From the NCBI RefSeq assembly GCF_905475395.1, contig NC_058341.1:66285501-66349500 (forward strand): a stretch of DNA of 64,000 bases. Direction: 5' to 3'. Every line of letters begins with the position of its first letter. Positions within the stretch are counted from its first letter, which is position 1. Both the position numbers and the translations under genes were made by a program. The stretch comes from Chrysoperla carnea (Eukaryota > Arthropoda > Insecta > Neuroptera > Chrysopidae). This document shows positions 1,881 to 50,329 of the stretch, in pieces. Below the pieces are notes generated by a model, which was not told where the DNA came from, did not search any database, and saw only the letters and a program-made list of their open reading frames with translations.

Positions 1881-2504
1881 AAAAATCGCGCGAAGTAGCA
1901 TTTCGCTCTGCAACTAAGTATTCACCGTGATACTTTTGAAAATAATTTTTTACATCTGTGTTTGCTGCTTCATTAACGGATTCATTATTGTTCTCACTTT
2001 TTAATCGACTACAAACAAAAAAGGAGGAGGTTATCAACTCTACTGTATATATTTTTTTTTGTGTGCTACCTCAGAACTTTTAACTGGGTGAACCGATTTT
2101 GATGATTCTTTATCTATTTGAAAGTTTTCGTGTGGTCCCATTTCATTCTGGTCCAGTTCTGATAACGACATCCATGAGAAAATCATAAAAGTCTTAAATT
2201 TGCATTAAGTATGCGTGACAAGAGGGCGAATAACTCAATATTACGCCAACCGATTTCGATGATTCTTTTTTAGTGTAAAATAATCGATTTTCAACGTTTT
2301 TCCACAATTTACTCGAAAACTGTACTTTTTAAAGAAAAATTAAATTAGTCCAAAGTTATCGGGTATAAAATTTTATCATCGACTTGTATGTATAAACTTT
2401 TTCAAATTTTTCATATTTTCTGAAAATACTACATCAAAATACAATTAAGCATGTTTTTGGTGGTTTTTATAGTTTTTCTTTCTAGTGGTAAAAATTATAA
2501 AGCG
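1881..2504. other. AT-rich spacer, no gene seen
   Basis: No coding exon, RNA gene or clear repeat is recognised here. The text is AT-rich and carries phrases about cells of dispersed-repeat type that recur loosely elsewhere in the window. Confidence 0.4.
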
Positions 2505-2880
2505 GAAAAATTATATACAGAGTCTCTAGCTCAGTTGGCTACATATGGAAAACTTTTTTATTATAAGTTAAAATTTATTCTTTATAAAAAGCTCAGCTTT
2601 CAAAAATATTAACATTCAGTTATTCACTTTTGAAATCGAATATATAGGGTGTCTACAAATTGAGAGCGTTCGATAGGAATGTTAATGGTCGTTTAGAAAT
2701 GTAGACCACTTAGAACAGATAATAAGGGAAACGGTTCAAGAAATCACTCCTGAGATATGTAGGAGTGTATTTAAACAATTTTGTAACAAATACAATTACA
2801 TGTATGGAACGCGAAGTTGTACACGTTGAGGCAAAAACGAAATGAAGATAACTGTTTTAACTTACGTCTACAACTTTGGA
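2505..2880 (+). repeat. Dispersed repeat R3
   Basis: About 370 bp match 54560-54935 in the same orientation, and the first ~100 bp match the reverse complement of 58800-58960. A shared core reads GGGTGTCTA next to a run about nucleotide 2650. No coding potential is seen. The repeat is probably part of an unidentified mobile element. Confidence 0.7.
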
Positions 2881-4147
2881 CTTGAGTGTTTTTTCCCTAA
2901 AATGTATAGTTTTTGAATAAATTATAAAAAACACCGGGAAAAGCGTGGAAAATTTATAAAAGCTGAAAAAATTCATCGATTTTCAATTAGGGGAGAGATT
3001 TTACAGCGAAAATTTTTAAGTTTCCCATTTTTATCAATACCAATAAGTTTAATGGAATTTTACGTCGAAAGCAAAATACCGTATCTTTCTAGCATGTATA
3101 GAAGAAAAATGGTAGTTTTGGGGGAATTTTTCCCATTATAAGGAATGTGCGACATATATTTTAAAGTTTTCTGTTAATTTTACTTTATTATTTTTTTTCT
3201 GTTAATTTTACTTTATTTTCGTAAAAAACCCCTATTATTTTAGCGTGAACAGAATTGTTTTAGAAGAAGTTTTAGTGGTTCAGCGTTTTAGGCCTGAAAA
3301 CGTAACACAACAGAGTCACTTTCACATTTATAATATTGGTTAGCACATCTTAATATCCTGGAGCGTATTTACAATATATAAATTGCCATTTAATAAATAT
3401 TATTTTATAATTAAACTTTAATAACCAGTAATACATGTCTACTTGTAAAATAAAACAATATTCCTTGCAAATAAACAATAACTAACTATATTTTAGAACT
3501 TTTACACAGAATTAATTAATCAACAATTATTAAAATATTGATTATTGCCAAATTAATTTTTATCGCATTTTCGAACGTGTTCTAAAGTCGTTGGTATGTG
3601 GCAACTTCATTTTTTATGAATATATATGTCAAAACAAAAAAAAAGAGCCTTAAATGAATCCGTTACGATGATTTTCTGAAGTATATTTTTCATTTGAAGA
3701 AATCCGGATTTTTGACAAAAAACTTGTATATGTCAAAAAATATTCAATAGTTTTACTTGAAAAAATTTGTGTGTGGATATTTTTTCTATAACTATCATTA
3801 AAATTTGACTATTTTTGGAGAAATGAGAATAAAAAAACAAAAAAAGACGGTTTTTCCCCATTTTGTCGAAAATTATAGGGTTATGTTAGAAATTACTTGT
3901 ATAAAAGTTCTAGATTTTGGCGTGATCAAGAACTTTTTTACTGAACACATTTCATTTTGACCGCAACTTTAGTTGGAAAACGAATTATACAAATAACCAC
4001 CCCTTTTTCACCTCCCCCCCCAAATACCCTTCAACTTTCCTGCTGGGAAATAGGCTTATTTTATATTTCTTAAAACCTCCTTCACCATTTCCAATCGTTA
4101 AACTGCTGTTTACAATATATCTTTTTTTTTAGTAAAATTGTGTTAAA
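2881..4147. other. AT-rich intergenic stretch, no gene seen
   Basis: No convincing exon, RNA gene or repeat structure was found. There is a C-rich run near 4012-4022 and several poly-T or poly-A runs. Confidence 0.4.
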
Positions 4148-4148
4148 A

Positions 4149-4572
4149 CTAGAGTGATACCCATCCGCTTCGCTGGGTTTAAAAGTAAAGATTGATAAAG
4201 ATTGCTCTCGCCTATCCACTTTCTATAACACTCGAAATAATGGTAAGGATTATTTTACATTCTATTTTTTTTGTGTATGTATAATAGTAATTATTCATTG
4301 AGTAATATCAGAGAAGATGTCTGTGAAAAATTTTATATTGACTATTTTTACAGAAATCTGTAATTTATGGTAATGTCAAATGTCCAATTAAATTCAATTT
4401 TTTTATTTTTATTATTATTTTTTAATATATCTTTATAAATTATAGTTCATGTGTTATTCTGATATATGAGCTATATTGCTGTACAGTTCCATTAAAAACC
4501 ATTTGCTAGTTTAAGCGTGAAAGCATAACAAACAAACAAACATGCTTTTTTTCGCATTTATAATATAGTAGA
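4149..4572 (-). mobile_element. Non-autonomous Helitron, family H1, full length
   Basis: Read on the minus strand the 3' end is a short hairpin built on CCCAGCGAAGCGG followed by CTAG, with the host T at 4148 (A on plus). The 5' end lies in the sequence whose complement reads TATTATAAATGCGAAA. The same family is complete at 53057-53490 and interrupted at 18036-28133. There is no Rep/helicase coding sequence. The exact 5' terminus of this copy is uncertain by a few bases. Confidence 0.75.
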
Positions 4573-6211: not shown

Positions 6212-6270
6212 ACTTCAAAAATTAAAATAATAAAAATGCACTAAAACGTAAAAAAATAACGACAATATAA

Positions 6271-6988
6271 TCTATATATATAAAAAGAGAGTGTTTGTTT
6301 GTATGTCCCCGATTTTCCCTAAAACTAACCATTGACCTGCGGTAGGGGATTATGTCATTGGGTAGCCCTTAGGCTCCCATTGTGAATAAGGGAGTTTGGT
6401 GGGGGTGGAATTAAAAATGATCTAGAAATTCATAGAAAATAGATTAAAAAATAGTTCTAATAGTACAATAGGAAATTCTGGAATGTTCCATGGATTTCTA
6501 TCGAATTTTCTAGAATTTTCTCGAACATTCTGGAATGTTCTATGGATTTCTATCGAATTTTCTAGAACTTTCTCGAATATTCTCGAATGTTGTATGGATT
6601 TTTATTGAATTTTATCAAACTTTCTCGAACAATCTGGAATGTTCCATGGGTTTCTGTCGAATTTTCTAGAATTTTCTAGAACATTCTGGAATGTTCTATG
6701 GATTTCTATCGAATTTTCTAGAATTTTCTCGAACATTCTGGAATGTTCTATGGATTTCTATCGAATTTTCTAGAACTTTCTCAAATATTCTGGAATGTTC
6801 CATGGGTTTCTATCGATCTTTCCCTTACTTTTCCGTACACACAGAGAGTATAGACATAATATTGGGATCGGCCAAAAAAATCTTACTGTTCCGTACACAC
6901 AGAGAGAATTAAAAAAAAAGTCTTTCATTTAACAATTTTGATATTTAAATGTGCAAAAACAACCCAGCGAAGCGGGTTTAACAGCTAG
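6271..6988 (+). mobile_element. Non-autonomous Helitron, family H2, with HSE minisatellite
   Basis: The element starts with TCTATATATATAAAAAG and ends with a hairpin based on AACCC/GGGTT followed by CTAG. It sits between host A (6270) and host T (6989), the A-T target expected for Helitrons, without target duplication. The flanking palindrome gives an empty-site check. Internally, 6478-6800 is a 52-bp minisatellite of about seven units. No Rep/helicase gene is present, so it depends on an autonomous partner. A truncated inverted copy lies at 19381-20034. Confidence 0.88.
6478..6830. promoter_or_regulatory. Array of predicted heat shock elements (52-bp units)
   Basis: Each 52-bp unit carries about eight GAA and TTC triplets that alternate with exactly two bases between them, the pattern GAAnnTTCnnGAAnnTTC bound by heat shock factor trimers. 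In 6502-6541 the alternation is perfect over eight modules. Unit starts are at about 6481, 6532, 6585, 6637, 6689, 6741 and 6793. The binding-site pattern is seen in the sequence; binding by HSF is inferred. Confidence 0.7.
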
Positions 6989-7196
6989 TATAGTTATAAT
7001 TATTGTTATTTTTGGAGTCGGTGTCAGCCAAGTTAATGTAGCAAACTGTTCTTTCAAAGTTGTTTTCTTGGCTGACACCGCGACCGACTCCAAAAATAAC
7101 AATAATTGTAACTACATTATATTGTCGTTATTTTTTACTTTTTAGTGCATTTTTATTATTTTACTTTTTGAAGTCGGTTTTCTTTTTGTTAAAAGT

Positions 7197-8545: not shown

Positions 8546-9769
8546 AGAAATTTTAATGAAATATTCATGAAATTTAAATTTGGTTCAAATATTTTTCTTC
8601 CGTAACTTTAATGACTGGACATTTCAACTAAACCATTATTTTAGTAATTAATATCTTTTTAATTACCCAAAATTAATTAATAAAAGTACAAATTCAGTGA
8701 GGGCATTTAAAAATTTCTAAAACGGAAATTCAAATTTTTATACGGACGTGACATCATTGTACGGGCTTGTCAAATTTGTTGACATACTGTATGATATTAA
8801 TTACTTACATTTTATATGGTATTTCATTAAATTATACTATTCTACATCTTTTTATTAGAAAACTTAATAATAACAAGTGTAAATTCTTTGTTGTAAATTC
8901 ATTTTTTTAAAGTGTAAATTATACATTGAACTGTCACCAATTGACAGATCACGTACTTATACGTCATCAACAGGGAGCGTCAAAAAACTGCGTTTAAATA
9001 TCTCAAAATTATCAACCGTGTTAACAATGAATTAAAAATATAAAAAAAAAACATGAATATTCCCTATTACGCATAACTATATAATTAACTAGCCCCACTT
9101 AGGTATATTTGTAAATATTCGATATTTCCTTCCCACTTTCTCGCTACACCTTTCTACCCTCCGAAGGTTAAAAAAATTTCTAAATGTAATTTAAAACATT
9201 CTGACCAAGTTTTGAACTATTAAAAGCCATAATTGAAAAATATGAATTTTTTATTCATGAACCCCCCCGCAACCCCCCTTGTGGGTGGAATTTCGTAAAA
9301 TCCGTTCTTAGCTGACCTCTACTTGGCAAAAGGAATATTCCTGCCAAATTTCAAGTCTCTAGGTCTTATAGTTCCAGAGATATCGTGATGAGTGACTATC
9401 TATATCTATAGAAAGTCTCCTATATATTTATAGATAGATAGAGATAAAAAAATTAAAAAATAAAACAAACACAGTAGACCTGATGGTACATCACGGTACC
9501 TGATGGTACCTGATGGTACATCACGGGTTTTTTTGAATCATAAATACAAATTTAAAACTTCATGAGTGGCTTCCTTTTGACGAGTCTACCAAGCTATCCT
9601 TTACGATTTTTTCTAAAGTGCTTCGATTTCAAATGAACATGATGATGTCATATTTGAGTTATTGTTCTGAAAAAATGTAGCCAATTGCAATGCAAGGAAT
9701 TTTTCGGACACTGTACTTGCCCCCTTCCCACCTTGACAGCCATAAATACATTAAACTTTCACACTTAAT
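8546..9769. other. AT-rich intergenic stretch; possible degraded Helitron
   Basis: No gene is seen. Bases 9089-9444 begin with CTAG after an A and end with GA before a T, the borders an inverted Helitron would show, but no clear hairpin is present, so this is weak. A small tandem of GATGGTAC lies at 9482-9525. Confidence 0.35.
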
Positions 9770-10843: not shown

Positions 10844-11231
10844 ATCCCATCAAAAACATTCTGTAAAAAACTAGCCAAGTCTCGATGGAGCTGCTTGTTT
10901 ATCTCTAAAAAGTAATGAAATCTAGACAAAGTCGTGCCAAGTCTAAGGTTACTTACTGCGATTTCTTTATTATTATCGTTAATGTTGTGTGACTTGGCCG
11001 TGGACGTTGACGTGGTCTCATATTGGTGAATGGTGTCATGGAGCACCTGATTTTGTACCCTTGTCTACCCTTCAACGGCCAAGTCACACAACATTAACTA
11101 TAATAATAAAGAAATCGCAGTAAGGAACTTTAGACCTGACCCGACTTTGTCTAGATTTCATTACTTTTTAGAGATAAACAAGCAGCTCCATCGAGACTTA
11201 GCTAGTTTTTTACAGAATGTTTTTGGTGGGA
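10844..11231. mobile_element. Hairpin MITE, ~390 bp
   Basis: The left arm 10844-11000 is nearly the exact reverse complement of 11075-11231, with a loop of about 75 bp. Apparent reading frames on both strands are arm artefacts. The transcript would fold into a long double-stranded hairpin. Confidence 0.88.
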
Positions 11232-12066
11232 TTTCACTTCTTTTTGTAGAAACGTAGGCATATTGATTTATTTTATTAGATTTTCTTATTTGACACAGTT
11301 TTTTTCTTTTAAGGAGTAGTTTTTTTATTATTACAAATCTTTCTTTTCTTTTTTCGGTTCTGATTCTTGTACAGTAGCAACAGTTTTTCGTATTGCCCAT
11401 TCGTGTTCATTGTTTATTCTTTTAGACGGTTTAATTTCTGAAAGATCGGCGCGGTATTTACTCCAAAGCTATTTATGCCTACGTGCTTTACATAAGGAGG
11501 GCTCTACATTTACGCTTTTGTACGGCGGTATGTCGATCTCTAATAGTTTGGTTGGGCTCTTGTGTTTTCTAATCAGGGTCATCAGGTACTCACAGATCTT
11601 CGATTATCCTAGTTTTTGTAGTTTTCCCTTTATGTGGCCATTAAACCCTAACTCTGTACCAAATTTCAGCTCTCTGAGTTTATGGGAAGTACTAGTGCTA
11701 TTCTGATGATCATGAGTGAGTGAGTGAAAGAGTGTCATAAATGCGAAACTTTGCTTTCGCTTAACTTTGGAACTAAATGACCTACAGACTTGAAATTTTG
11801 GATTTTAAGTATGTGATTATAGCTTACTGGATGACGAATCTGCGTTCATTTCCGCGTTCTGGTCTTATTCAGAGATTCCCAAATAGGGGCCTGAAAATGC
11901 GGCAAAATGTTTCCAGTAAATGATGGTACGGCAATATTTGCTTTCCGCTCGACTTGGCGGGGGCACTGCCGTGTCCCCGGATATTTTCTCTTCTTTCTTT
12001 TTCAGTCAAAGACAATATTAAAACAAATAAATAATTCGTTGATTTTATTTATTTAATGGGTCCATA
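11232..12066. other. Spacer upstream of unit B, no gene seen
   Basis: No supported gene. An open frame at 11410-11706 has no recognisable domain and no paralogue in the window. The last ~45 bp (near 12022-12066) match 38600-38650 upstream of unit C and belong to the duplicated P450 5' flank. Confidence 0.4.
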
Positions 12067-12697: not shown

Positions 12698-15600
12698 ATG
12701 TTTTTAACGGTGTTTATTCAATTTCTACAAAATCATGTTTTAATTTCTTTAGTATTGTTAATCTTAGTTCTCATATGTATTTATTTTTGGAATTATATTC
12801 GTGTGTGTTATTATGTATCTAAAATTCCTGGACCACCAGCTTATCCAATTATTGGAAACGCAACTTTACTTTTGGGTTTATCTCATCAAGGTAAATTTTA
12901 TGAGTTTTTATAATATAGTTTAGAAATTTATCACGCAAGAGCTGCGTAAATCAAGCTACTTCTATCTTAAGAATATTAATATTAGGGGAGAGTGAAAACA
13001 TTGATATGTTTTTCAAAGCCACCTTAAAAAATTAGCATAATGCAAATAATTTCTTCATATAACACTGTTTTATTCCCGCACAATATGTATTTTTTGTTGA
13101 GAATTTCAATATTAAACAGATACCTTGGAGCAATATTACAAATTGTATAGGTCTTAATTTCAATTAAGATATCATACTGTTACATCTTTTGTTTTAGAAT
13201 TTACACATACTATTCTGAAAATTGCTGAAGATTATCAGCAGAATTTGGGCCGAATATGGTTTGGTCCAATTCCCGCCATCGGAGCATCAAATCCAGATAT
13301 TGTTCAAGAACTTTTAACAAATGAAAATGTTTTAGAAAAAGCCTACTTAATGAAAAAAGCTTGGAATCCTGTAATGGGAAAATCAATTTTAACATCAGAC
13401 GGTATTCTAATATTTTCTAAATTTTTTAAAATAAAAATCTTGATAACCATTAAAATATTTTTAGTTCCAGAATGGAAACATCATCGAAGTATTATAATTA
13501 GAGGTTTTACTCCAATCATTTTAAAATCATACTTTAAAATATTTGTGGAAAAAATTAATATTTTAATACAAAAATTAGATTTGGAATTAAATAAAGAAAC
13601 ACCGTTTGATATATTTGAATATTTGTCAAGAACTTCTTTAGACTCAGTTTTTGGTAAGAAATTTACCGATAAATCGAAAGAACTTGTTAGGAGAGACAAC
13701 TTACTATCAGAGAACGGGTGGGGGGATATAAATTTTTCAATTAGAAATATTGACATATCTGCCAGGTTTTAAGGAAATATGTTTCAGATAATAGTTGTTT
13801 TAGTTTTTAATTTTTTCCCCATCTTGAACAGGATGGAAACAGATTTTCCCCATCAGGAACACAAATTTTTGTACAATAAATTTCAAAACTAGATAGTACG
13901 AGAATTCAAATGAGCATAATGACATTTTAGATACCACCCTTTTTTTTTTTATAAAATAAGTCAAAAGTCAATATCTTGGTCCAAAAACCTTGTACGGGAA
14001 TTTTTTATAGCTCATTTTCAAGAAAAATAAACAAGCTTTTAAAAATTTTTAAAACTTTGGGAATAATATTTCTCTCTTTTAATCCTCCGTGCAAGGCTAT
14101 TAGATTCCAAAACTTTTCAAACGAGGTATTGCGATTAAAAAATCGAAGATTTTGCGCGGCGAGGCAGTTGTATGAAATTCAGGTAAAATTTTTGTTCCAC
14201 TGAGGTTGAGTATATTAATTGCCCTTTAAAATACACACAAACAACGGAATCCCAGTGGGTTGGAATGATTCAAAATGTTGATAGATTTGTCCATTTGTCA
14301 TGTCCATTTGTTTCCACGGCTTATATGTGAACAGTAGATAAGTAGTTGAGTCTAATTATTATAAAAGGTTATTTTCGCAATCTAGGCCACGCGGAGTCTT
14401 TTCCGATTTGCTGCAATAATATTAGTTTTTGGGATTCCGTACCCGAAATGTAGACAACGGATTCCTTTTACTAAGACTCTGCTTCTTGTTTGTCCGTCTG
14501 TCTATCAGCAGGCTATATCACATAAACCGCAAAAGTTAGACTGCGCTTGTTAGCTATGACAGAGAGTGGATTATTTTTGCCGCTTTAAGTGTAAACTATG
14601 TGCTTTACTATGTGCATAGCTTGTAAAATGGTATGAAATCCTTTGTACGCTAGTTCGACTCACAATTGACCGGTTTTACACATATTTCAGTAGGTATTTG
14701 CGGGGCATAGGCGGGATGTGTTGAATCGGCTACCAGCTTTTAGCCTAAGAAATGAAAAACATAACAATTAAATTTAATTCCAGGGTCAACAATGGGTGTA
14801 AATATAAACTCGCATGAAGATGATGGATCTTCTTACTTTCATGCTGTACACAGGTGAATAAAAAAAGTGAAAATATTAATATAAATTGTTTCTAATTTTG
14901 GTATAAATTTTAGTTCGTTGTATCTTATAGTAGCTCCATACTTGAATCCAATCAAATGTTTTAATATATTTTATCGATTCACACAAGATTATAAAATGGT
15001 ATTAAAAAATCGTGATCTTACGCAGGAATTTACTAAAAAAGTTGGTGATTTCACTTTTCGTGTTCGAGCTGTGCCACTAACGTAGGATTTAATATATCTG
15101 TATTTCTTTACAGATTATTTTGGAAAAACAAAAATTTATGGCAAACGTTATAAATAATAATGAGTTAAATAACATTAAAGCAATCAACCGTAATGTATAC
15201 AAAAAACCATTTTTGGAATATTTAATGGATTTTACAAGAAATAATTCGAATTTTACGGAAGAACAATTACGTAATGAAACCAATCTTATTATTTTTGGGG
15301 TATGTTATTTGAATTATTAACCTTAAGTCCTTAATGAAGCGAAAATTCAATGGTTACTTTTGTCTTCCATTTGGAGAATTGATTATAATATGTTTGGCTA
15401 TAAAGAAAAAGTACCTGGATGACCCGCGAGCTTTACTCGGTATTTTTTGAGTTAAAAAGGCTCAAATTTTATTCCTAATATAATAATTTAACACTAATAT
15501 AAGAATCATTTAAAATGTCTTCACACAAATACCAATTTGAATGCCTCGGTGATGTACTTTATTTCATCACCAATAGATGTCAATATTTCAGTTTTTTCAA

Positions 15601-17723
15601 AAAACATGGTCAAAACGACATTTTCTAAAAATAAAACCTAGCTAGAACGATTTAAAATTTTTGAAAGTTTAATGTTTGGAAAAACTCTAAAAAGGTCATT
15701 TTCAAATTTTTGGATTATTTTTGAAGATTGCCTTTATGAAGATTGGTTAATTGCAAAATAACCAACTTTTGTTTGAAAGTATTTCCTTGACTATTTTTTT
15801 TCGTTTTTCGAGAATGTTTTTATAGTTTTGGAGAAAATAGACATCAAAATTTTCTCCTAATTTGCGCCCTCACGGGTAAACAGTGATGTTTATGAAAAAA
15901 TATTTCAAATAAAAGTTGTTTTTATCAGGAATAATTTTTACATTTAAACTTTTGCTTTATCTCCAACGGCTTTCAAGATAGATACTTTTTAATTTGATTG
16001 AATGAGCAAAAAATACACCATTTTAAAATTGGCATATCTCGGCCAGTTTTGAAACTAGAAAGTCGCATTAAAAAACAAAAATATGCACAATTAAATCAGC
16101 TAGAACCCCCCTGAATGGCCGCTTTTTTGGTATGAAGGTTTTACAATTGTGAAAAATTTTTCAAAGATGCAACACTTTTTTCCTTTTAGATATTTGGTTT
16201 CATTGCACGCTAGAAAATTTTCCCTCATTGTAATCAAGTACTTTCCAGCCTTGTTTGAGGGAGCTTTAAAGAAATATTAAACGATTAATAAAATTTCACT
16301 ATTTTAAGGGTTATGAAACAACAGCACTTTCTCTGAGCTATGTTTTATTACACTTGGCTGCATATAAAGACATACAAACAAAATTATATAATGAAATAAT
16401 AAAAGTTCTTGGTGACATAAATGTAGACTTAATCAATGTCGACGATTTACCAAAGCTCAAATATATGGAGATGGTTCTAAAAGAATCTATGAGATTAACT
16501 CCAACGATTCCACTAATTGTAAGAGAGCCATCCCAAGATATTAAAATTGGTAATATTTGCTTATAACGCAACTAGGTTTTGGTGAGAGTTGAGTATGCAA
16601 AATTGAACCCAAAATCCAGATGCCAGGTTGAAAATTGGCGTATTTACCGTCGTTAAACAAATATATAATACTTTAGAGTTTATTAAGTATTAAAAACTTA
16701 AGCAGCCTTTAAAATTTCAAAATTAGTTATAACAGAATGTCTTTATAATATGATGAAAATTTAAGCAAGAAATTTTAATATTATTTCAAAATTAAAACTG
16801 CGTAGAATTATCAAGGAAAAAAACCTTCAACGCGGCTGACTTAAGGTAGTACTATCGGTAATAGACTTTGATTCAGAACTTAATGAAACTTGGAATAGTT
16901 GTCCATTATTATATCAAAATTAACCAGTTAAATTTTTAGGGAACCTTCAGAGAACTGAAAATCTGAACGTCCAGTTTTATGAAATAAAATAAATTCTGTG
17001 ATTTCCCATAAGGATCAATGTCAAATTTTGATATAATAATGGACAACTATGCCAAGTTTCATTAAATTCTGAATGCAAAGTCTATTACCGATAGTACTAC
17101 CTTAAGTAACAAAAGGACAAAAGGTGTACATATAAATGAACATTTTACAAAGTTTAAGGTAGGCCGGATGACAAATCTTTTTCGAGTCCCCAAAATCTGG
17201 TAGCATGAGTTTTTTGGATTCCTCATATTTTGCAAATTCAACCTTTTGGGTGCGGTTTATTGTTTTAAAGTAAAACAAATTAACGGAATTATATCCATCT
17301 TTAGGCAATTATATAATTCCAAAAGGAGTATCTATATTAATTCCAATCTTTACTATCCATCGGAATCCAGAATATTGGGAAAATCCATTAAAATTTGATC
17401 CAGAACGATTCACAGCAGAAAATATAAAAAATCGTCACCCTTACGCGTACATTCCATTCAGTGCTGGTCCTAGAAATTGTATTGGTATGCAAAATAAAAT
17501 TAAATTATTTAGGTGCGTCCGTGTGCGACGAACTTTGATTAATTTCTTTTGTTTAGGTGGTCGATATGCATGGATCTTTATGAAAACAACGTTGGCTGCA
17601 TTATTAAGCCGGTATGAATTTCACACCGATATAAATTTGGACACATTAAAGTTTGAAGGAGCGATTTCAATGAAATTAGTTAATGGGCACCAAGTACGAA
17701 TCACACCACGATATAAATCATAA
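12698..17723 (+). CDS. Cytochrome P450, CYP4-type, unit B (9 exons)
   Basis: Predicted membrane-bound haem monooxygenase of the endoplasmic reticulum. Exons: 12698-12890, 13198-13401, 13465-13653, 14784-14853, 14914-15040, 15114-15299, 16309-16549, 17305-17484, 17557-17723. All introns are GT-AG and the sum is 1,557 nt, giving 518 residues plus stop. Visible features in order: N-terminal hydrophobic anchor, proline hinge [11 protein letters not shown], helix C WKHHR, CYP4-like STMGVN, helix I GGYETT, helix K KESMR, PERF, haem loop [10 protein letters not shown] and C-terminal RITPRYKS. The ATG at 12698 is chosen because the equivalent ATG is conserved in units C and D; an in-frame ATG at 12620 would add 26 residues. 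The helix I glutamate usual in CYP4 (FEGHDTT) is replaced by Gly. AATAAA follows at 17763. Substrate is unknown; detoxification or lipid hydroxylation are typical for the family. Exon 5 uses a weak GTTGGT donor. Confidence 0.9.
13402..13464 (+). other. 63-nt intron 2 of unit B, in frame and stop-free
   Basis: The intron begins GTATTC and ends TTTTAG. It is 63 nt long and has no stop in the reading frame, so retention would add 21 residues after TSD. Unit C has an equally long, stop-free intron at 39491-39553. A second AG six bases downstream (13470) is an alternative acceptor that keeps the frame. Confidence 0.65.
16840..17107. mobile_element. Hairpin MITE in intron 7 of unit B
   Basis: Bases 16840-16915 are the reverse complement of 17030-17107, sharing ACTTAAGGTAGTACTATCGG at the outer ends. 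The loop is about 110 bp. A related fragment is seen near 6190. Confidence 0.85.
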
Positions 17724-18035
17724 GATGTTTTGTTATTTTTGTAAATAGATAGACATAAGTAAAATAAAGTCAATTTTTATTAGAATTTTCTTTATACCAA
17801 AGAAACTCATAAAATTTTAAAAAATTCGAAGTATTACAAAAAAAAAAAAAGTTCGAGTAAAAAAATTCGAATATTAAAGTTAAGTTATACAGGCTGGAAC
17901 ATAGAAGTGTGATTTTTTGAAAACGCTGTATAACAAAAACCCATCAGTTTTTCTAGATTATTTTCATACCATCTTAAAATATATAAAAAAAGCATTTTAA
18001 ATTACTATGTAACTTTTTAATCGTATATCTAAATA
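17724..18035. other. 3' flank of unit B and start of a duplicated block
   Basis: Contains the P450 3' UTR with the polyadenylation signal near 17763 and an A-run at 17837-17850. From about 17917 the sequence is copied at 21225-21850 inside the large transposon. Confidence 0.55.
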
Positions 18036-19380: not shown

Positions 19381-20034
19381 AGATATTATGTCTACACTCT
19401 CTGTGTGTACGGAAAAGTAAGGGAAAGATCGATAGAAACCCATGGAACATTCCAGAATATTCGAGAAAGTTCTAGAAAATTCGATAGAAATCCATAGAAC
19501 ATTCCAGAATGTTCGAGAAAATTCAATAGAAATCCATAGAAAATTCCAGAATGTTCGAGAAAATTCTAGAAAATTCGACAGAAACCCATGGAACATTCCA
19601 GATTGTTCGAGAAAGTTTGATAAAATTCAATAAAAATCCATACAACATTGGAGAATATTCGAGAAAGTTCTAGAAAATTCGATAGAAATCCATAGAACAT
19701 TCCAGAATGTTCGAGAAAATTCTAGAAAATTCGATAGAAATCCATGGAACATTCCAAAATTTTCGAGAAAAATCGAAAGACATTTGCGCCAGTAGCGCCA
19801 TCTAGTGAAAATTGTACTATTGACAGTGGGGCCTATTGTACTATTAGAACTATTTTTTAAATTTATTTTCTATGAATTTCTAGATCATTTTTAATTCCAC
19901 CCCCACCAAACTCCCTTATTCACAATGGGAGCCTAAGGGCTACCCAATGACATAATCCCCTACCGAAGGTCAATGGTTAGTTTTAGGGAAAATCGGGGAC
20001 ATACAAACAAACACTCTCTTTTTATATATATAGA
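19381..20034 (-). mobile_element. H2 Helitron fragment, 3'-truncated, with HSE array
   Basis: Inverted copy of the element at 6271-6988. Its 5' terminus (complement TCTATATATATAAAAAG) ends at 20034 beside host T at 20035, as expected. The 3' terminal hairpin and CTAG are missing. The 52-bp minisatellite is kept at about 19440-19770. It lies about 490 bp upstream of the first exon of the transposon gene. Confidence 0.82.
19438..19775. promoter_or_regulatory. Second array of predicted heat shock elements
   Basis: Six to seven 52-bp units in which GAA and TTC alternate every five bases, for example GAAcaTTCcaGAAtgTTC near 19499-19520. It lies 0.75-1.1 kb upstream of the ATG at 20521. A heat-responsive effect on that gene is an inference only. 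Confidence 0.6.
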
Positions 20035-22693: not shown

Positions 22694-25600
22694 ATGGCTG
22701 TCTTTCTTGATGAAGAAATTTTTAATAAAGAAAAGATCTATTTCTTGCATGACCTATTATTACGGTACAAATCTTTACTTGTAGAAGTAACAGACGAATA
22801 TTCTTTAACCGATTTCAAAAATTATACAACAAGTAATTTAGAAGAAAAACTGCGGAAAAAATACGGTGAAGCCATTATAATTCGTTCATCTGAAATTTAT
22901 AATAACAAAAAAATTGTTCACAAACGGGGTTTGAATCTCGAAACCGTATTATATAATTCGGCAGTTCAAACTTCTGAGAAATTAAGATTTCAGAATGTTG
23001 CGTATGATTTAAGAAATTGCGTGAAAAAAATAACGAAAAAAAAAAATGTTATTACTGTCAACGATGTCATTGATTGTGAATGCGACACTCCGGAATTATT
23101 ATTTAATTTTATTTCTGATTTAATACAAGGTCCAGACATTCGAAGAAAAAATTCAATGGAAGATTTAGTCAAAATTAAGTCGTTATGCCATGACATCATA
23201 TATATTGTTTGTAAAGGTCGTATAAAACCAAGTAAACAATTAAATCTTGGTATATCAATAAAATCGTTGACAAGCAGTAGAAAGGTAATCAATATTTTAA
23301 ACAAATATGGTCATTCAGTTTGCTACTCTACACTTGAAGGAATAGAGACTGAAATGACATATGCTGCTGTAGAAGAGGATCATTTGATTCCTCCTGGAAT
23401 TCATAAAAAAAAGGAATTATGTACGAATGTGGCCTATGATAATTATGATAGATTTGTAGACACAATATCTGGGAAAGACACTCTTCACGATACTGTTAGA
23501 ATTATTTATCAATTTGTTCTTATGGAAAATAATAAAGAAACAGAGTCAACGGTTCCATCCACCAGTGATCAGCCAGATCCATCTCCTAAAGTTCAATTAG
23601 CTTTATCTACTAGTGCTCAATCGGATCCATCTACCAGTTCTCAATTAGTTTTCTTAAGTAATGTTCAATCAGATCTATCAACTAACGATCCGACAGATTC
23701 ACCACAATCAGATAATTGTGCTAGCCCTGATAGTGAAAATATTACTCCTAGAAAGAGACGAAGATTCGATGTAATGCCGCGTGATTCAACACCTTACATG
23801 ATAAAACCGAAAGCTATAACCACTTTGATTCCATTTTCCGAGCTCCAACAATTCATTAATTCATGTACTAGTAGCAGAAAAAATTCTGATATTAAAAATT
23901 TGATTTGGGCTTTTTCTGTATCCCTGATTCCTAATTGTCCAATGTGGGTAGGCTATAACAGTCAAACAACTATAGATAATAGTTTAATTCAAGTTGTTGA
24001 TTATTTAGCTCAAATTAATGCACCCCCTACTTCTTATACTATAGTACATGAAACAATGAGAAATGCCCAAAACATTGCATTACAATGTGAGCAAGACGAA
24101 ATTATAGTGAGTTATGATTTAGCAATTGCTAAAATGGCTATGCAGCTTCAGTTGCAAGAGCAACCTAAATTCAATAATTTGTTCATAAACTTGGCAGCTT
24201 TTCATATAGAAATGGCTTTCTTTAAAGCCTTAGGTAAATTTATAGATTCATCAGGTATTGTCGATATACTCGTTCAGTCGGAGGTTCTCGCAGAAGGTTC
24301 AACTAACGGATTTATTGACGGTAAACATTTCAATAGATGTAAACGCATACACGGATTATTATTTGGCGCTCTTCAAAGCTTGCACATTGAAAAATTCATT
24401 TCTGAGTATGGCTTGGATATCAATATATTAATAGAAAATTTACAATATATTAGTATGACTCGCACAGAAAATTGTACGCCTCTAAATTTAAACGAATCAT
24501 TACAATCAGTCATTAATGATTATATTAATTACTCGAAATTGACCCTGAATGGTGAACATGGAAAAACAGCACAATACTACATGCTGTATATGAATTTTAT
24601 AAACACTTTTTTTTCATTATCAAGAAGCATAAGAGGTAGTGATTTCGAACTTTACATTACTACGTTATTTGAGATGTCAAATTTATTTTTTATTATGAAC
24701 CAGCCTAATTACTCTAGATGGATGTTGTTATATATATGTAATTTAATCAATTTAAAAAAGAATAATTCCAAATTATTTGATAACTTCAAAAAAGGTGCTT
24801 TTGGAGTTAAAAGAACCGGGAATAACTTTTCGCGAGGACCAGTCGATTTAACGTTAGAACAAACGATAAATACTGATGCTGCAAATTCATTAACTGGCAT
24901 TTCTCACTTTAGCAATTCGATCTCTGCTCGACAACGGTGGGCACTTAGTCATAGTTTAAGGACAAAAATTATTTCAACCTTATTTCAAGATATAGGCATA
25001 ACCCAGAGAGACGATAAAATACACGAATTAGAAAAACATCGAATCGAAAAAGATCAATTAGCGTTAAAAAATATTATTATCTGTTTTAAACAAAACATGA
25101 ATCCATTTGATAAGAACATAGATGAAGAGTATTTATTTAATGTTGTCACCGGTAAAGCTGTATCAGAAATCACAGAAACTTTCCTTTTGAATATCAATAA
25201 ACTGGGTGATGAGAAGAAAAATAATTTTTTAATTGAATGCAATAGTAAACCCGAACGATTTGAACAAACAATTAAGAGAAATACTATTTCCAACTTTTCT
25301 TCAGAATGTATAAAACAAACTTTTAAAAATAAAGATGGTAAACAAGTTCAACTAGCTATGGAACGAAATATCTTCGGTAGGTTATTAGCGATTTCATTGG
25401 AAAAACAAATAGATTTGAAATATTGTTTATCATTCCCTCTTGCACTGGTCCCTCCAGCTCTTTGTCATGTCACTGGTGATATGATTGAAACTGATAAATC
25501 ATCATTAGCGAAAAAATTATATTCTTATGTACATCCTTGTGTACCACCTCCTATGGACACAGACATAATTGACGGTTTTTATTTTTTACATCACCTTGGT

Positions 25601-26815
25601 CCGGTAATACCACAAACTTTTGAGAAACTTTCAGAATTTATTCTAATCAAAATGTGCAATACTACTGCATCAAATATTCATTTGATTTTTGATAGATACT
25701 TTTTCCCCTCGATTAAAGATTGTGAGCGCCAAAATCGAGGAGAAATTAATGTATCTTTTAATATAACTGGTCCATCTCAGAAAAGGCCCACTAATTTCTT
25801 AAAAGCTTTACGAAATTATAAATTTAAAGAAGCCCTAGTAAATTTTTTTTCTGAAAGTTTCGCTTACGATCATTTAGCAACAATAACAGGTAATAAAAAA
25901 ATTTTTTTAACAGTCGATCATAATTGCTATTCATACAAAGTCATTGATGGTGTCGTGATAAAAACACTTGAAACAGACTTTGAATGCTACCATGAAGAGG
26001 CGGACACAAGGATGATTTTTCATTTGAGCAAATTGGAAGATAATTCCAAAGTTATGATGAAGTGTTGGGATACAGATATTTTAATAATATTATTAGGCCA
26101 CATTCATAAATTACAGCACTTAGAAATCTTTTTAATAACCATAGGATCAAAGCCGAACATAATTTCTTGCAGAAATTGTACGGAATTGTCAAAAGCATTG
26201 GGTGAGCGTTTGTGTCAGGCACTCCCAGCATTTCACGCTTTTACAGGATCAGATTATACTGCTGCCTTTTTTAGAAAAGGCAAGAAAAAACCTTTAGAGT
26301 TATTGATAAAAAATGAAAAAATGCAAGAAGTTTTTGCATCATTACTTGATCCTCAAGAAGTCGAAAGTTTTGATAAGATGGAAATCGTCCAAGAATTTAC
26401 ATCAATGCTCTATAATCAAAAGAACTGTAAAAGCGTGGATTTGGCACGATTGTTTATTTTTCAAAAATTATTTGCTAATACTTTATCTGCAGTTTTCTTT
26501 TGTAAAAGTGTGAAAAGTTTTGACTCGAGTACGATACCTCCCTGTTGGAAATCCTTAAAACAAAAGATATTAAGAACAATTTATATTAATTCAATGTGGC
26601 AAAATGCTACTGAGCGAGAGTGTATCGTACTCGACATTAATCAATGTGGGTGGGTCAAATCGGATGATGCAATTAAACCTGTATGGTTCGAAGGTGATCC
26701 AACGCCTCTTACAATAGACGATATTTTAATGCATAATATGAACGATGACAATGATGAAGAAATTAATGAGCAGCATAATGTTGATGTTTTAGAGGAAGAA
26801 CATGAAAATGAATAA
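22694..26815 (+). CDS. 1,373-aa transposon protein with FEN/PIN-like nuclease motifs
   Basis: The longest ORF in the window and uninterrupted. The frame is open upstream to 22619, so residues DWHKLRKHHKEALAA just before the ATG are probably coding and the true start lies in an upstream exon. Residues ~280-350 are Ser/Thr/Pro-rich, followed by a basic RKRRR near 353 (possible nuclear signal). The C-terminal third has a spaced acidic series: FDRYF (~999), HEEADTR (~1100), DTDILIILL (~1126) and FTGSDYTAAFFRKGKKKP (~1183). This order resembles FEN/XPG-type PIN nucleases (EAEA, DxD, GCDY followed by a Gly/Lys segment). The tail is acidic. Being the only large protein between long TIRs, it is a candidate transposase or mobility nuclease; that role is inferred. 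Similar multi-copy hypothetical proteins are, to my memory, common in invertebrate genomes. AATAAA-like signals follow from 26857. Transcribed plus, after the disrupted zinc-finger exons. Confidence 0.8.
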   Translation: MAVFLDEEIFNKEKIYFLHDLLLRYKSLLVEVTDEYSLTDFKNYTTSNLEEKLRKKYGEAIIIRSSEIYNNKKIVHKRGLNLETVLYNSAVQTSEKLRFQNVAYDLRNCVKKITKKKNVITVNDVIDCECDTPELLFNFISDLIQGPDIRRKNSMEDLVKIKSLCHDIIYIVCKGRIKPSKQLNLGISIKSLTSSRKVINILNKYGHSVCYSTLEGIETEMTYAAVEEDHLIPPGIHKKKELCTNVAYDNYDRFVDTISGKDTLHDTVRIIYQFVLMENNKETESTVPSTSDQPDPSPKVQLALSTSAQSDPSTSSQLVFLSNVQSDLSTNDPTDSPQSDNCASPDSENITPRKRRRFDVMPRDSTPYMIKPKAITTLIPFSELQQFINSCTSSRKNSDIKNLIWAFSVSLIPNCPMWVGYNSQTTIDNSLIQVVDYLAQINAPPTSYTIVHETMRNAQNIALQCEQDEIIVSYDLAIAKMAMQLQLQEQPKFNNLFINLAAFHIEMAFFKALGKFIDSSGIVDILVQSEVLAEGSTNGFIDGKHFNRCKRIHGLLFGALQSLHIEKFISEYGLDINILIENLQYISMTRTENCTPLNLNESLQSVINDYINYSKLTLNGEHGKTAQYYMLYMNFINTFFSLSRSIRGSDFELYITTLFEMSNLFFIMNQPNYSRWMLLYICNLINLKKNNSKLFDNFKKGAFGVKRTGNNFSRGPVDLTLEQTINTDAANSLTGISHFSNSISARQRWALSHSLRTKIISTLFQDIGITQRDDKIHELEKHRIEKDQLALKNIIICFKQNMNPFDKNIDEEYLFNVVTGKAVSEITETFLLNINKLGDEKKNNFLIECNSKPERFEQTIKRNTISNFSSECIKQTFKNKDGKQVQLAMERNIFGRLLAISLEKQIDLKYCLSFPLALVPPALCHVTGDMIETDKSSLAKKLYSYVHPCVPPPMDTDIIDGFYFLHHLGPVIPQTFEKLSEFILIKMCNTTASNIHLIFDRYFFPSIKDCERQNRGEINVSFNITGPSQKRPTNFLKALRNYKFKEALVNFFSESFAYDHLATITGNKKIFLTVDHNCYSYKVIDGVVIKTLETDFECYHEEADTRMIFHLSKLEDNSKVMMKCWDTDILIILLGHIHKLQHLEIFLITIGSKPNIISCRNCTELSKALGERLCQALPAFHAFTGSDYTAAFFRKGKKKPLELLIKNEKMQEVFASLLDPQEVESFDKMEIVQEFTSMLYNQKNCKSVDLARLFIFQKLFANTLSAVFFCKSVKSFDSSTIPPCWKSLKQKILRTIYINSMWQNATERECIVLDINQCGWVKSDDAIKPVWFEGDPTPLTIDDILMHNMNDDNDEEINEQHNVDVLEEEHENE

Positions 26816-28700: not shown

Positions 28701-30361
28701 ATACAAAAGAGAAAACATTGTTGTATATAGTGCCGTTACTACTGTCGATTTAGAGATGTGTTCGAAACCTGGAACTTCTCCTCTATGGGACCTCCACCCC
28801 CTACCTCTCCTCCATGGGACCCCTACCCCCTATCAATTTTCGAAAACATCGAAAAAAACCAGTATTCTTTTACGCTGGAATTTATTTATTTATAAAGTGC
28901 ATATTTTCCGATTTTTGTACATTGAAAAGGCCTTATATTTATAGTGGTTACTAAAATCCATCTTTCGAATTTTTATAATCGAAAATAAATTCAACATTGA
29001 TAAGATTGGAAACGTCAAGACTTCTTCATTTTCAAAAGAAATAATGACCAAAGAACTGAACATTTCTTATTACGTAATCAATGAAAAAAGTCTGAAATTT
29101 CTATAACTTACAAAAAGAAAATCGAATTTGTGCACATCAAAGATCCCTTTTAGAGCCGCAAGATCCGTTTTGAATGCGACTTTAGGGTCTCGTACCCGAG
29201 AAAACTAAGAACGAGGCGATGGTCCTCAAGATAGGTACTCTCTGGCGTGTAATCTTACCTATTTTTCAAGTGCGAGTTTTGGGTTCCGTACCCGAAACAT
29301 TTATCAGAAATTTTTTTAAATTCTATAAATTTCACTTGTTAGAGACAACTTTTATTGTACTAAGAAGTATAAAATAATTTTTCTTTTGGGTGACTCATAC
29401 ATACATGATTAATTGTAAAAGCTTGAGGCGCTCCGAATCATACTTGATATTTTATATTGAGTGTGTCAGCTTTTACAAATAGTCATGCATGAGTGAATTT
29501 TGGATAAAAGGCATGATTTAATTTAGATGAAGTTGGATTAAGTCTAAATCAATTATGAAAATTTTACTGGAGGTTATCCGCTTATTTAAATAAATAAATG
29601 ACTTCGAAAGTAGACATACTTAACATTGGTTTTATGGGGAAACGTAGATGGATGATTTAAGTTTTCTTAGATTTCTCCAAGACTAGTCAGTGGAAATAAA
29701 AGCAAAACTATTAAAGTTAAAACCTTAAGAAACTATTTAAAAAAAACTCATTGTGCCCCACTAATTAAGGATGTATGAGCATAGTAGTGGGAGCACAAAT
29801 TTAAAAAAATATATATTATCAATTTTGATGGTGAATTATGTTATAACTTGAAAACATAAGACGGAGAGTAATAATTGAAAATTTGGTTTAATTATTTAGC
29901 TTTCGATATTTCGAAAACCAAGGCAGACATCGAAATATTTTATTCTTATTTTTCGTCTACATTCATGAAGTTATAATAATTAAAATAAAGTATAAATAAT
30001 TCACGTTTACCTTGCGCTCGTACTACCTTATTAGAAAATGTAAAAGAATCAATTGCCCGACTTTTAAAAACATCGAGAAAAAAAATATTCGATTAATCCA
30101 ATGAAAAATTTTCGATTGATCGAGTTTATTTGTTCATCCTTATAATAATTTAACAGCCTTAAAATTTAATAAAAAAAATGATAATTTGCTATAAAATTCA
30201 TTATAATTTGCTATAATTAAAATTATGTAAATTTTTATACTAGCCTTGAAATGAAAAGGAACTGAAGTAATTAAAAGTTGATGAAAACTGATCTTTTAAA
30301 ATTATTAATATTTTGGTCAACGCATAAGTATTTTATTTAACTTCAGATGTTAATGTTATAC
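28701..30361. other. AT-rich intergenic stretch, repeat fragments only
   Basis: No gene is seen. 29160-29330 holds fragments of the family at 7197-8545 (the phrase GGGTTCCGTACCCGAAACAT). The rest shows no clear structure. Confidence 0.4.
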
Positions 30362-31335
30362 TACAACAAGTGAAAACTAACAGTTGACTGAGTTAATTGT
30401 TGAAATACCATGTATAGACAGTGTTACATTACATTACTCTGTCACATTACACATATAATGTGATATTAATATAACTGATATTAATATACTGACTCCCACG
30501 GGTAAACAGTGATGTTCACGAAAAAATATTTCAAACAAAAGTTTTTTATTTTTTTATAAGGAACATTTTTATATTTAAACTTTTATTATATCTCTATCGG
30601 TTTACAAAATGGGTCCGACGGACCCAAGATGCAATTGATCTATGTTGCTCATTTACGAACTGGACCTCACTTTTTACGTCCTGAGTACGCTATAAAAAAT
30701 TTCAGCTTGATATCTCTTTTCGTTTTTGAGTCATTCTGATGACAGGCGAACAGACGACAGACAGGCAACCGAAAATGGACTGATGATTTTATGAACACCT
30801 ATACCAAAATTTTATACCATATATATGAAATATATCAAGGTATACTAAGTTTAGTCCCAAGTTTGTAACGCTTAAAAATATTGATGATAGGAAATAAATT
30901 TTGGTATAGGTGTTCATAGAATCACCTAATTAGTCCATTTCCGTCTGTCTGTCTGTCGTCTGTCCGTCTGTCATCACGATTACTCAAAAACGAAAAATGA
31001 CATCAAGCTGAAATTTTTTATAGCGTGCTGAGGACGTAAAAAGTGAGGTGAAGTTCGTAAATGAGCAACGTAGGTCAATTGGGTCTTGGATCCGTAGGAC
31101 CCATCTTGTACACCGTTAGAGATAGAACAAAAGTTTAAATTAAAAAAAACCACTGTTTACCCGTGAGAGCGAAAATTATGCGCAAATTATATAGTATGTA
31201 TATTATGTCTGTATCAGTTATGTATGTGTGAAGTGAATGCATGTGTTATGTGACAGAGTAATCAACACTGAATATACATGGTATTTCAACAATTAACTCA
31301 GTCAATTGTTTGTTTTCACTTGTTTTTTATAACAT
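30362..31335. repeat. Two R2 copies head to head
   Basis: 30362-30835 is R2 on the minus strand and 30820-31335 is R2 on the plus strand, meeting at their ATACCAT-type ends. The result is a ~970-bp imperfect palindrome. Confidence 0.78.
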
Positions 31336-32379
31336 CAATAGTTTTAAACGTTACAAACTTGGGACTAAACTTAGTATACCTTGGTATATTTCATGTACAT
31401 GGTATAAAAACTTGTTTTCTAATCATTAATTTGTTGTGATCACATATCCGCGTGTTTATCAGTATTCTCTCACATAATAAATAATATTATAATGAATGTG
31501 TAAGTAAAAACATCATTTTTTATTTTTAAACAAAATAAAATTATTCATTGTTCTCACTGAACTATTCCCATTTTTTGCAAATAATGACTAAATAGAAGTT
31601 TAATGATAAATAGAAGAATAAGAAATTTTTTTACTATTCTTTTCTAAATTTTGCGTTTGAGTACGTAGATTTTGAAACGTAACAAAAATTTTCTGTTCGC
31701 TGGGATAGAAAGCTAAAAATTAGTACGGAGCTTCCTATTGACCGTTTATATTGCCTAAGTGCATACAAGCCTTATCTAATAATATTAAGAAGTGAATTTT
31801 TGAAAAATCTTGGATACCCCTTTCAGACCTTCCATATTGTCAGATCAGGTTGGCATGAAAATAGTAACAAAAAACCAATAACTGGAGTTTCCCTACCAAA
31901 CAGCGCGCCCCAAAGAAAGTTATAAGTAAATGTAAAAACGACTATTTTCTCTCATTTTTCAAATTTTCTCGCCACCTACGCAACTAAATCGGATTTACCA
32001 TACGTCAATCGATAGGTTTTTTTGAGATCTAGAATTTTTCAATTTATTTATTTTTTTTTTGCATTGGACGTCATTTTTTTCTGTTAATCGCAAGCAAATC
32101 GTTTTTTTGACTTTTGCGAATTTTTTCAGTTGGCCATTGATTAGTCGTAAACAAAAAAACACTATGTTTCTTGGCTCGTTTCCTTCTATAAAAACGTATT
32201 TTTTGTTTTCTGATAACAATTTTGTCATCCGTTTCATATAGATTAATGGGATTTTTTTTAAAAATGGGAATGAAAGTAAATGCATGGTGGGTCAGTTCGT
32301 TTTGTAGTTTTTTGTAGGACTCAAAAATCAACTTAAAATCCTAGTCATAGATAATAAATATTTATATTATAATTAGTTG
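31336..32379. other. AT-rich intergenic stretch, no gene seen
   Basis: Several short frames overlap on both strands at 31995-32331, but none shows a domain or codon bias. No repeat structure was recognised. Confidence 0.4.
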
Positions 32380-32860
32380 TCTATGGTCCTAGTTCTTCGG
32401 GGTGCTTTAATAGCCAATTAAGATTCTAAACGGTAAGAGATATAATAACACTTTAAATTAGAAAGTTGATGCTCATAAAAAAAACTATTAAGTTTTGTTT
32501 TTAACATTTTTTCAAAAAACGTTAGCTTTCGAAGGAAATGCGACTTAAAAATATGTCATAATTGCATTTAATTGAAAGAAAATACGCTTAAAGTTTATCG
32601 ATAATTGTAGGCTGAAATCATGGACACAGGCAAATGTCCTCTATTGCCCTTGACAAATTTTGGCTAAAGCTTTTTTCCGTAGTTATCGTATTTTCTTTCG
32701 ATTAAATGCGATAATATTTTTAAGTCACATTTCCTCCAAAATGACGAAAACATGGTTAATTTTTTTTATGAGGATCAACTTTCTAATTTAAAGTGTTATT
32801 TTATCTCTTACCGTTTAGAATCTAAGTTGGTCAGTACAGAAATCTGAAGAACTGGGTCCA
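32380..32860. mobile_element. Palindromic foldback element, ~480 bp
   Basis: The left half (32380-32625) reads as the reverse complement of the right half (32635-32860). Both share AAACGGTAAGAGATA and AATTAGAAAGTTGAT. There is almost no loop. Confidence 0.85.
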
Positions 32861-50077: not shown

Positions 50078-50329
50078 GATATTTTGTAATTTTTGTAATA
50101 TTTAGATAATTATAAGTAAAATAAAGTCAATTTTTATAGGAATTTCGAACTTCATCTCTATAAAGTTCATTAAAGATGCGTAATAAGAAATAAAAACAAA
50201 AAAATATGTTGTTAATGTATCTTAGTGGTCTTCAATGTCCATTTCAAAAAAATTTCCCAAATATCGTATTTCCGGGAAAAATCAATAAAATTCATTTAGA
50301 CAGTTGTGAAGGAAGCTGGCGTGAATCCA

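Follow-up and report, generated by a model that had tools for sequence, protein, structure and literature searches.

A minisatellite of predicted heat shock elements in Helitrons of the green lacewing Chrysoperla carnea

The closest described counterparts of the element reported here are Helitrons of Caenorhabditis nematodes in which heat shock elements (HSEs), i.e. the sites recognized by heat shock factor (HSF), precede the Rep-Helicase gene. In C. elegans, 14 HSEs precede the Rep-Helicase gene of Helitron1_CE, which is raised 21-fold by heat; for the C. briggsae counterpart the corresponding figures are 85 HSEs and 4-fold (PMC6927752). Binding of HSF-1 to Caenorhabditis Helitrons has been reported (PMC6927752, section 5), as has HSF-1 dependence (PMC6765114), and in vitro most of the tested HSEs were bound cooperatively by the worm HSF-1 DNA-binding domain, with up to five domains per site (PMC9148306). 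HSE-bearing Caenorhabditis elements named in these sources include Helitron1_CE, HelitronY1_CE, Y1A_CE, Y4_CE, Helitron2_CE and Helitron7_CB (PMC6927752; PMC6765114). Among other mobile elements, a heat-activated retrotransposon is described for Arabidopsis (PMC3907296), and insect Helitrons with internal tandem repeats are known (PMC6544945), 'heat shock' and Neuroptera having no occurrence in the main text of the latter paper.

A metazoan survey of the RepeatMasker Helitrons of UCSC found HSE enrichment only in Caenorhabditis and suggested that it might be restricted to this genus; the motif printed for the scan is NGAANNTCCNNGGAN (PMC6927752, section 9). No HSE-bearing insect Helitron appeared among the titles and abstract openings listed in the literature searched, which most subscription papers lie outside. 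The printed motif differs from the canonical HSE and, if it was used as printed in that survey, other species may have been missed. The lacewing element described in the following is an arthropod case of an HSE-bearing Helitron, the published survey having had Caenorhabditis only. HSEs in front of a transposase gene in a second phylum would point to a mobile element that ties its movement to host stress outside the nematodes.

The element and its array in the window

The window, i.e. the whole stretch of 64,000 nucleotides of C. carnea DNA that was analysed, contains a non-autonomous Helitron of 718 bp (copy 1, 6271..6988, + strand) with 5'-TC and CTAG-3' ends of the types also found in 38 genome copies. 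The initial annotation, made from the letters alone, had placed the array in a Helitron and supposed an insect host, and was right on both counts. Copy 1 inserted into an inverted repeat, and the arm opposite to the one that received it (7067..7174, - strand) preserves the empty site: the 5' flank (6212..6270, +) and the 3' flank (6989..7032, +), once joined, match the opposite arm with 98/109 identities and 7 gaps in an alignment that crosses the junction. As the joined flanks align through the junction of the element-free arm, the insertion took place between A6270 and T6989 without target duplication. A 3' subterminal hairpin, AACCCAGCGAAGCGGGTT, directly precedes the CTAG (6961..6978, +; -4.1 kcal/mol with DNA parameters). 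The marks of a canonical Helitron are, therefore, all found, namely 5' TC, 3' CTRR with its preceding hairpin, and insertion between A and T with no duplicated target. Inverted-repeat elements of other families occur in the window at 6212-7174 (the recipient repeat), 10844-11232, 30350-31338 and 32384-32860.

The HSE minisatellite of copy 1 (6475..6822, +) consists of 6.6 units of 52 bp and comprises 41 modules in runs of at least three, giving 27 overlapping three-module HSEs; Tandem Repeats Finder reports it with period 52, 6.6 copies and 88% match at 6475-6816. In a module walk, GAA and TTC triplets were found to alternate in strict 5-bp steps, with up to eight modules per unit, i.e. eight at 6503..6540, seven at 6555..6587 and again eight at 6659..6696 and at 6711..6748 (all +). 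The 5-bp phase claimed by the initial annotation is thus borne out, with runs of eight modules in three units and of seven in a fourth, and so is its account of the unit length, since each unit contains one TGG module and one gap that is 2 bases longer than the others (TTC-TATC-GAA), so that 52 = 10 x 5 + 2. Some of its details need amendment, the element measuring 718 bp (6271-6988). The 52-bp unit stands, its 'about seven' repeats becoming 6.6 units, one of which (6579-6630) is degenerate; the TGG module, which it called altered, is unchanged in 13/13 aligned units of the two window copies and is, therefore, not simply a decayed module.

The second of these copies, absent from the initial annotation, lies on the minus strand at about 19386..20034, within another repeat. 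It is 3'-truncated, ending at about 19383-19386; over the first 195 bases only two substitutions and one single-base indel separate the two copies (85% identity overall, array indels included). Its HSE array (19423..19770, -) has 36 modules in runs of at least three, among them three 8-module runs.

The density of the motif in the window is far above expectation. The four-module match GAANNTTCNNGAANNTTC occurs 25 times against 0.01 expected from dinucleotide shuffles, and the three-module HSE 55 times against 1.18. Taking an HSE as at least three alternating nGAAn units, 53 of these 55 are within the two arrays (27 in that of copy 1 and 26 in that of copy 2, taken here as 19423-19790), and two are elsewhere. 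GAA/TTC at 5-bp spacing forms 10 runs of at least four modules in the window, the longest of eight; among the other 31 trinucleotide/complement pairs at this spacing, AAA/TTT forms four runs, ATA/TAT one and TAA/TTA one, the longest of five modules, and at spacings of 3 to 12 no other pair exceeds six modules within the window (AAA/TTT, spacing 8). A coding origin of the array was rejected, the frames in the element being short, overlapping and of at most 73 aa.

Two tandem P450 genes (13108-17788 and 39201-50145, both +), close to the lacewing CYP4416A group, are found in the same window, copy 1 lying some 6.1 kb upstream of the earliest exon recognised for the first gene and copy 2 some 1.7 kb downstream of the last exon of that gene. 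The joined exon translations of one P450 gene of the window, used as the query, have their best matches in P450s of C. carnea and C. zastrowi sillemi; against one C. carnea protein, identity is 80% over 96% of the query and, against another, it reaches 91% over 58%. CYP4416A is the name used in records of C. zastrowi sillemi, in which CYP4416 is expanded and two members are reported to be lower in an imidacloprid-resistant strain (PMC9604014). A 1373-aa open frame at 22694-26815 (+), with no Pfam family and 83 homologues at up to 58% identity, the named ones from insects, is perhaps an undescribed mobile-element protein.

Genome copies and Rep-Helicase relatives

A search of the 559-Mb assembly with window positions 6300-6900 gave 316 candidate places, the best 40 of which were scored. 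The sampled copies are those most similar to the query and not a random set, so that older copies are unsampled, and, as window copy 2 is not among the 40 scored, the list of copies is incomplete. An array with an intact 8-module run was found in 39/39 fetched places (from the best 40 of 316, besides the window's own). Thirty-eight of these were cut out with both ends, the L044 copy being set aside, and together with window copy 1 they form a set of 39 elements, which leaves out window copy 2 and L044, both without the CTAG end and its hairpin. The 5' terminus reads TCTATRTAT in 36 of the 39, the other three having diverged at the start, and in all 36 with a readable start the TC is preceded by A; each of the 39 ends in CTAG followed by T, and the hairpin core CCCAGCGAAGCGGG is intact in 35. 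The 40-base flanks of the copies are at most 62.5% alike in any pair (ungapped).

The 5-bp phase to which the initial annotation had attached its reading is retained in the genome copies, the 8-module run being kept in all 39 elements, i.e. the window copy and the 38 best-scoring genome copies, and in the L044 copy. Each element carries 25-34 three-module HSEs (32 in the consensus); the flanks of the 38 genome copies contain five in 170,361 bases. Median divergence from the consensus is 0.85% over the 39 elements, so the sampled copies are young, and their spread is recent.

A six-frame search of the genome for the Helitron_like_N domain returned 64 matches, some rows being pieces of one locus. 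Short stretches from the first 12 Rep-Helicase loci had no match to any part of the element; the autonomous partner emerged from longer upstream stretches together with the locus beside L044, where a Rep-Helicase match at C6:9729915 adjoins the array-bearing copy. L044 and L078, which are contiguous and were joined (G000:C6:9.727-9.733 Mb), constitute a decayed autonomous relative with its Rep-Helicase gene broken into several frames, the only autonomous relative found for the array-bearing family. In the joined sequence, positions 4-706 of the family consensus are found at 2489-3196 (97.7% match), followed by a second array in the opposite orientation at 3278-3741, by TATATAA at 3786, 61 bp past the last array run, by a splice-donor-like GTAAGT at 3947, and by an ATG at 4223, 437 bp past the TATA, which opens the Rep-Helicase reading. 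Pieces of the latter match PF14214 (3.6e-47) and Pif1 2B (1.9e-18), PIF1 itself, at 2.9e-4, being under Pfam's cut-off. Consensus positions 711-773 then recur at 8729-8791 (98.4%), the last 3' bases having diverged. The Rep and Pif1 helicase parts of an autonomous Helitron are, in this way, found in broken frames between the 5' block of the short elements and the greater part of their 3' end.

Where the middle part of this relative joins the two outer ones, neither a TC start nor a CTAG end was seen, from which we infer an origin of the short elements by internal deletion rather than the insertion of a second Helitron. In the transposase-making element, the sequence of array, TATA and ATG makes the array promoter-proximal. 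As a control, a 4-module HSE followed by TATAWAR within 110 bp was counted and occurs once, at the promoter of the autonomous element, in a pool consisting of the window and L023-L061 (537,078 bases counted on both strands), to which the second Rep-Helicase family does not belong.

To this second family belong eight fetched loci (L066-L073), whose domain scores are equal and whose open frames have 1372-1528 aa (1462 in five loci); its identity to the first family is 65% in the helicase and 76% in Rep. In one long upstream stretch, GAGAG and a 4-module HSE are followed 19 bp on by TATATAA, 440 bp before the first ATG, and the same HSE and TATA are present in three of four copies, the fourth stretch beginning downstream, in the leader. 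The layout of HSE and TATA is found in two of five Rep-Helicase upstream regions: no HSE was found in the 3.5 kb upstream of the Rep-Helicases at C3:1.677 Mb and C6:10.658 Mb, and the region upstream of that at C6:11.861 Mb has only three scattered HSEs, in a GAA/TTC-rich stretch. This stretch with its three HSEs (L076, G000:C6:11861100-11864600, Rep sense 150-640) is possibly a decayed HSE array.

Two features of the distribution of these genes may be added. At G000:C3:3767553-3809834 there are seven Helitron_like_N matches, five consecutive intervals between them measuring 5813-5815 bp and the remaining one 12.7 kb, and six of the matches have frames of 720-721 aa; this is a tandem Helitron array, perhaps a rolling-circle concatemer. 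Furthermore, 35 of the 64 match rows (some rows forming one locus) are on C6, at 38.6 Mb the shortest of C1-C6, and 34 of them are within G000:C6:4.3-12.8 Mb.

Possible roles of the array

With a probability of about three in four, we consider the array to be an HSF-binding regulatory module of a green lacewing Helitron lineage, acting as a selfish heat-shock switch on transposase transcription; heat stress would then probably switch the element on. The order of array, TATA and Rep-Helicase is a heat-shock-promoter layout, as reported for Helitron1_CE of Caenorhabditis. The parallel with Caenorhabditis drawn in the initial annotation is apt, and it goes beyond that first reading, because in the decayed autonomous relative the array occupies the promoter region of the Rep-Helicase gene. 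In the autonomous ancestor, the array would have lain directly upstream of the Rep-Helicase TATA box, where HSF trimers arising under heat or proteotoxic stress would occupy it and promote transcription of the transposase, as the behaviour of HSF and the Caenorhabditis precedent suggest, and host stress would lead to multiplication of the element in a heat-coupled transposition. The non-autonomous members may derive from internal deletions in which the TATA box and the gene were lost while the two ends and a single array were retained, and they would be mobilised in trans, each insertion scattering about 30 overlapping three-module HSEs. Portable clusters of predicted HSF sites would be spread by such copies, and recently inserted HSE clusters in one insect offer a natural set for testing whether the heat response is rewired.

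An unlikely alternative is that the array is a passive minisatellite, in which a 10-bp GAATTTTCTA-like repeat expanded within a Helitron and the HSE match has no function. Internal tandem repeats are common in Helitrons, the short copies are without the Rep-Helicase TATA region, and Tandem Repeats Finder also reports for the array a 10-bp period (29 copies, 65% match). Such repeats of GAA/TTC do arise in prokaryotes, which are not known to have HSF: 8-module runs were found at 11 prokaryotic loci, each with a single TTC-to-GAA spacer, eight being exact 10-bp repeats and three varying in the GAA-to-TTC spacer. Compared with these controls, and in favour of the HSF-binding module, the window runs have two to three TTC-to-GAA spacer types and two to four GAA-to-TTC types. 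However, both spacers also vary in three contigs of a viral collection that contain the 8-module pattern (L001, L002 and L003, L001 and L003 sharing a stretch), so that varied spacers alone prove nothing. Scans of viral contigs with pieces of the element found no match. The runs of the three contigs, of eight to nine alternating GAA/TTC modules and inside an open frame in L001 and L002, the two for which frames were listed, could represent an origin or else a coding repeat.

The substitution counts likewise leave room for passive expansion. Private changes in the 39 elements number 17 at 132 core sites, 21 at 76 spacer sites, 31 at 127 other array sites and 99 at 403 flank sites; the 17 in cores compare with 33 expected from base-matched or 38 from context-matched sites, the copies having been selected for their similarity to a query made up largely of array. 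This apparent depletion of the cores is undone by the copy-sampling bias and by one diverged copy, L034. Without it, changes at non-core array sites fall from 52 to 28, and against the expectation from flanks there are 13 changes versus 30.2 in cores and 28 versus 45.4 at non-core sites, i.e. both classes are depleted relative to the flanks with no clear difference between them. Within the units themselves, mismatches in one consensus unit amount to 3/30 core versus 7/20 spacer positions (P 0.07); over the 13 window units, which are not independent of each other, 23/351 core versus 41/286 spacer cells differ (P 0.001), and 12/27 core versus 14/22 spacer sites are variable (P 0.25). Against a passive origin, the consensus 8-module run, chosen for its perfect cores, has mismatches in 0/24 core and 6/16 spacer cells, the array abuts the Rep-Helicase TATA, and the corresponding position in the second Rep-Helicase family is taken by a 4-module HSE that is not repetitive.

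The invariance of the TGG module implies that what is conserved is not the HSE cores alone, and a reading based solely on HSEs leaves this module unexplained. The TGG module of each unit (window 6475-6822) is, as such, a possible site for another factor. That the whole array serves some other factor reading GAA/TTC or the CYATGGRTTTCTATCGA segment, the resemblance to HSF sites being secondary, finds support in the unchanged TGG of the 13 aligned window units; it is nevertheless quite improbable, because the 3+2 alternation, here sustained over eight modules, has the geometry specific to HSF trimers, and because the autonomous promoter and the second family share the layout of HSE and TATA, the HSE of the latter being outside any 52-bp array.

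A structural or replicative role, in which the self-complementary array would form hairpins or cruciforms, or bind Rep, during rolling-circle transposition, draws on the hairpins that Helitron ends need, on folding better than that of mononucleotide shuffles (0/100 as good) and on TTC-to-GAA spacers that are self-complementary in 6/16 cases in copy 1, above the chance level of 1 in 4. This role is the least probable of all and a hairpin or cruciform function is disfavoured, given that the same spacers are self-complementary in 4/15 cases in copy 2 and the GAA-to-TTC spacers in only 1/20 (copy 1) and 2/20 (copy 2), that the genuine 3' hairpin at 6961-6978 is separate from the array, and that, when the spacers are shuffled around unchanged cores, 97/100 shuffles equal or surpass the real array in folding, so that hairpin formation is not what is kept.

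Comparison with known systems

Among elements of similar build, the insect Helitrons with internal tandem repeats cited at the outset and the DINE-1-type elements, with their central repeats, resemble the lacewing element in combining Helitron ends with internal tandem repeats. The regulatory module that we propose for the lacewing array has its nearest likeness in the Caenorhabditis HSE Helitrons, which likewise transpose as rolling-circle elements, contain densely overlapping HSEs, some of them upstream of the Rep-Helicase gene, and have non-autonomous copies with HSE clusters. Unlike those of Caenorhabditis, the lacewing HSEs are arranged as a regular minisatellite of 52-bp units, in which eight modules may follow one another, and HSF binding and heat induction, shown for the worm Helitrons, are in the lacewing predicted from sequence. 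The Arabidopsis heat-activated element, which we take to be ONSEN, represents a different class, ONSEN being a plant LTR retrotransposon with HSEs in its LTR; it would share with the lacewing Helitron, as proposed here, the exploitation of the host heat response by a mobile element for its own activation. Finally, insect heat-shock promoters, e.g. that of Drosophila hsp70, are built of HSE, GAGA-like repeat, TATA and short leader, and the second Rep-Helicase family of the lacewing resembles this layout in all four parts; the difference from hsp70 is that the gene is a transposase, and that the arrays of the window reach 36 and 41 modules in runs of at least three.
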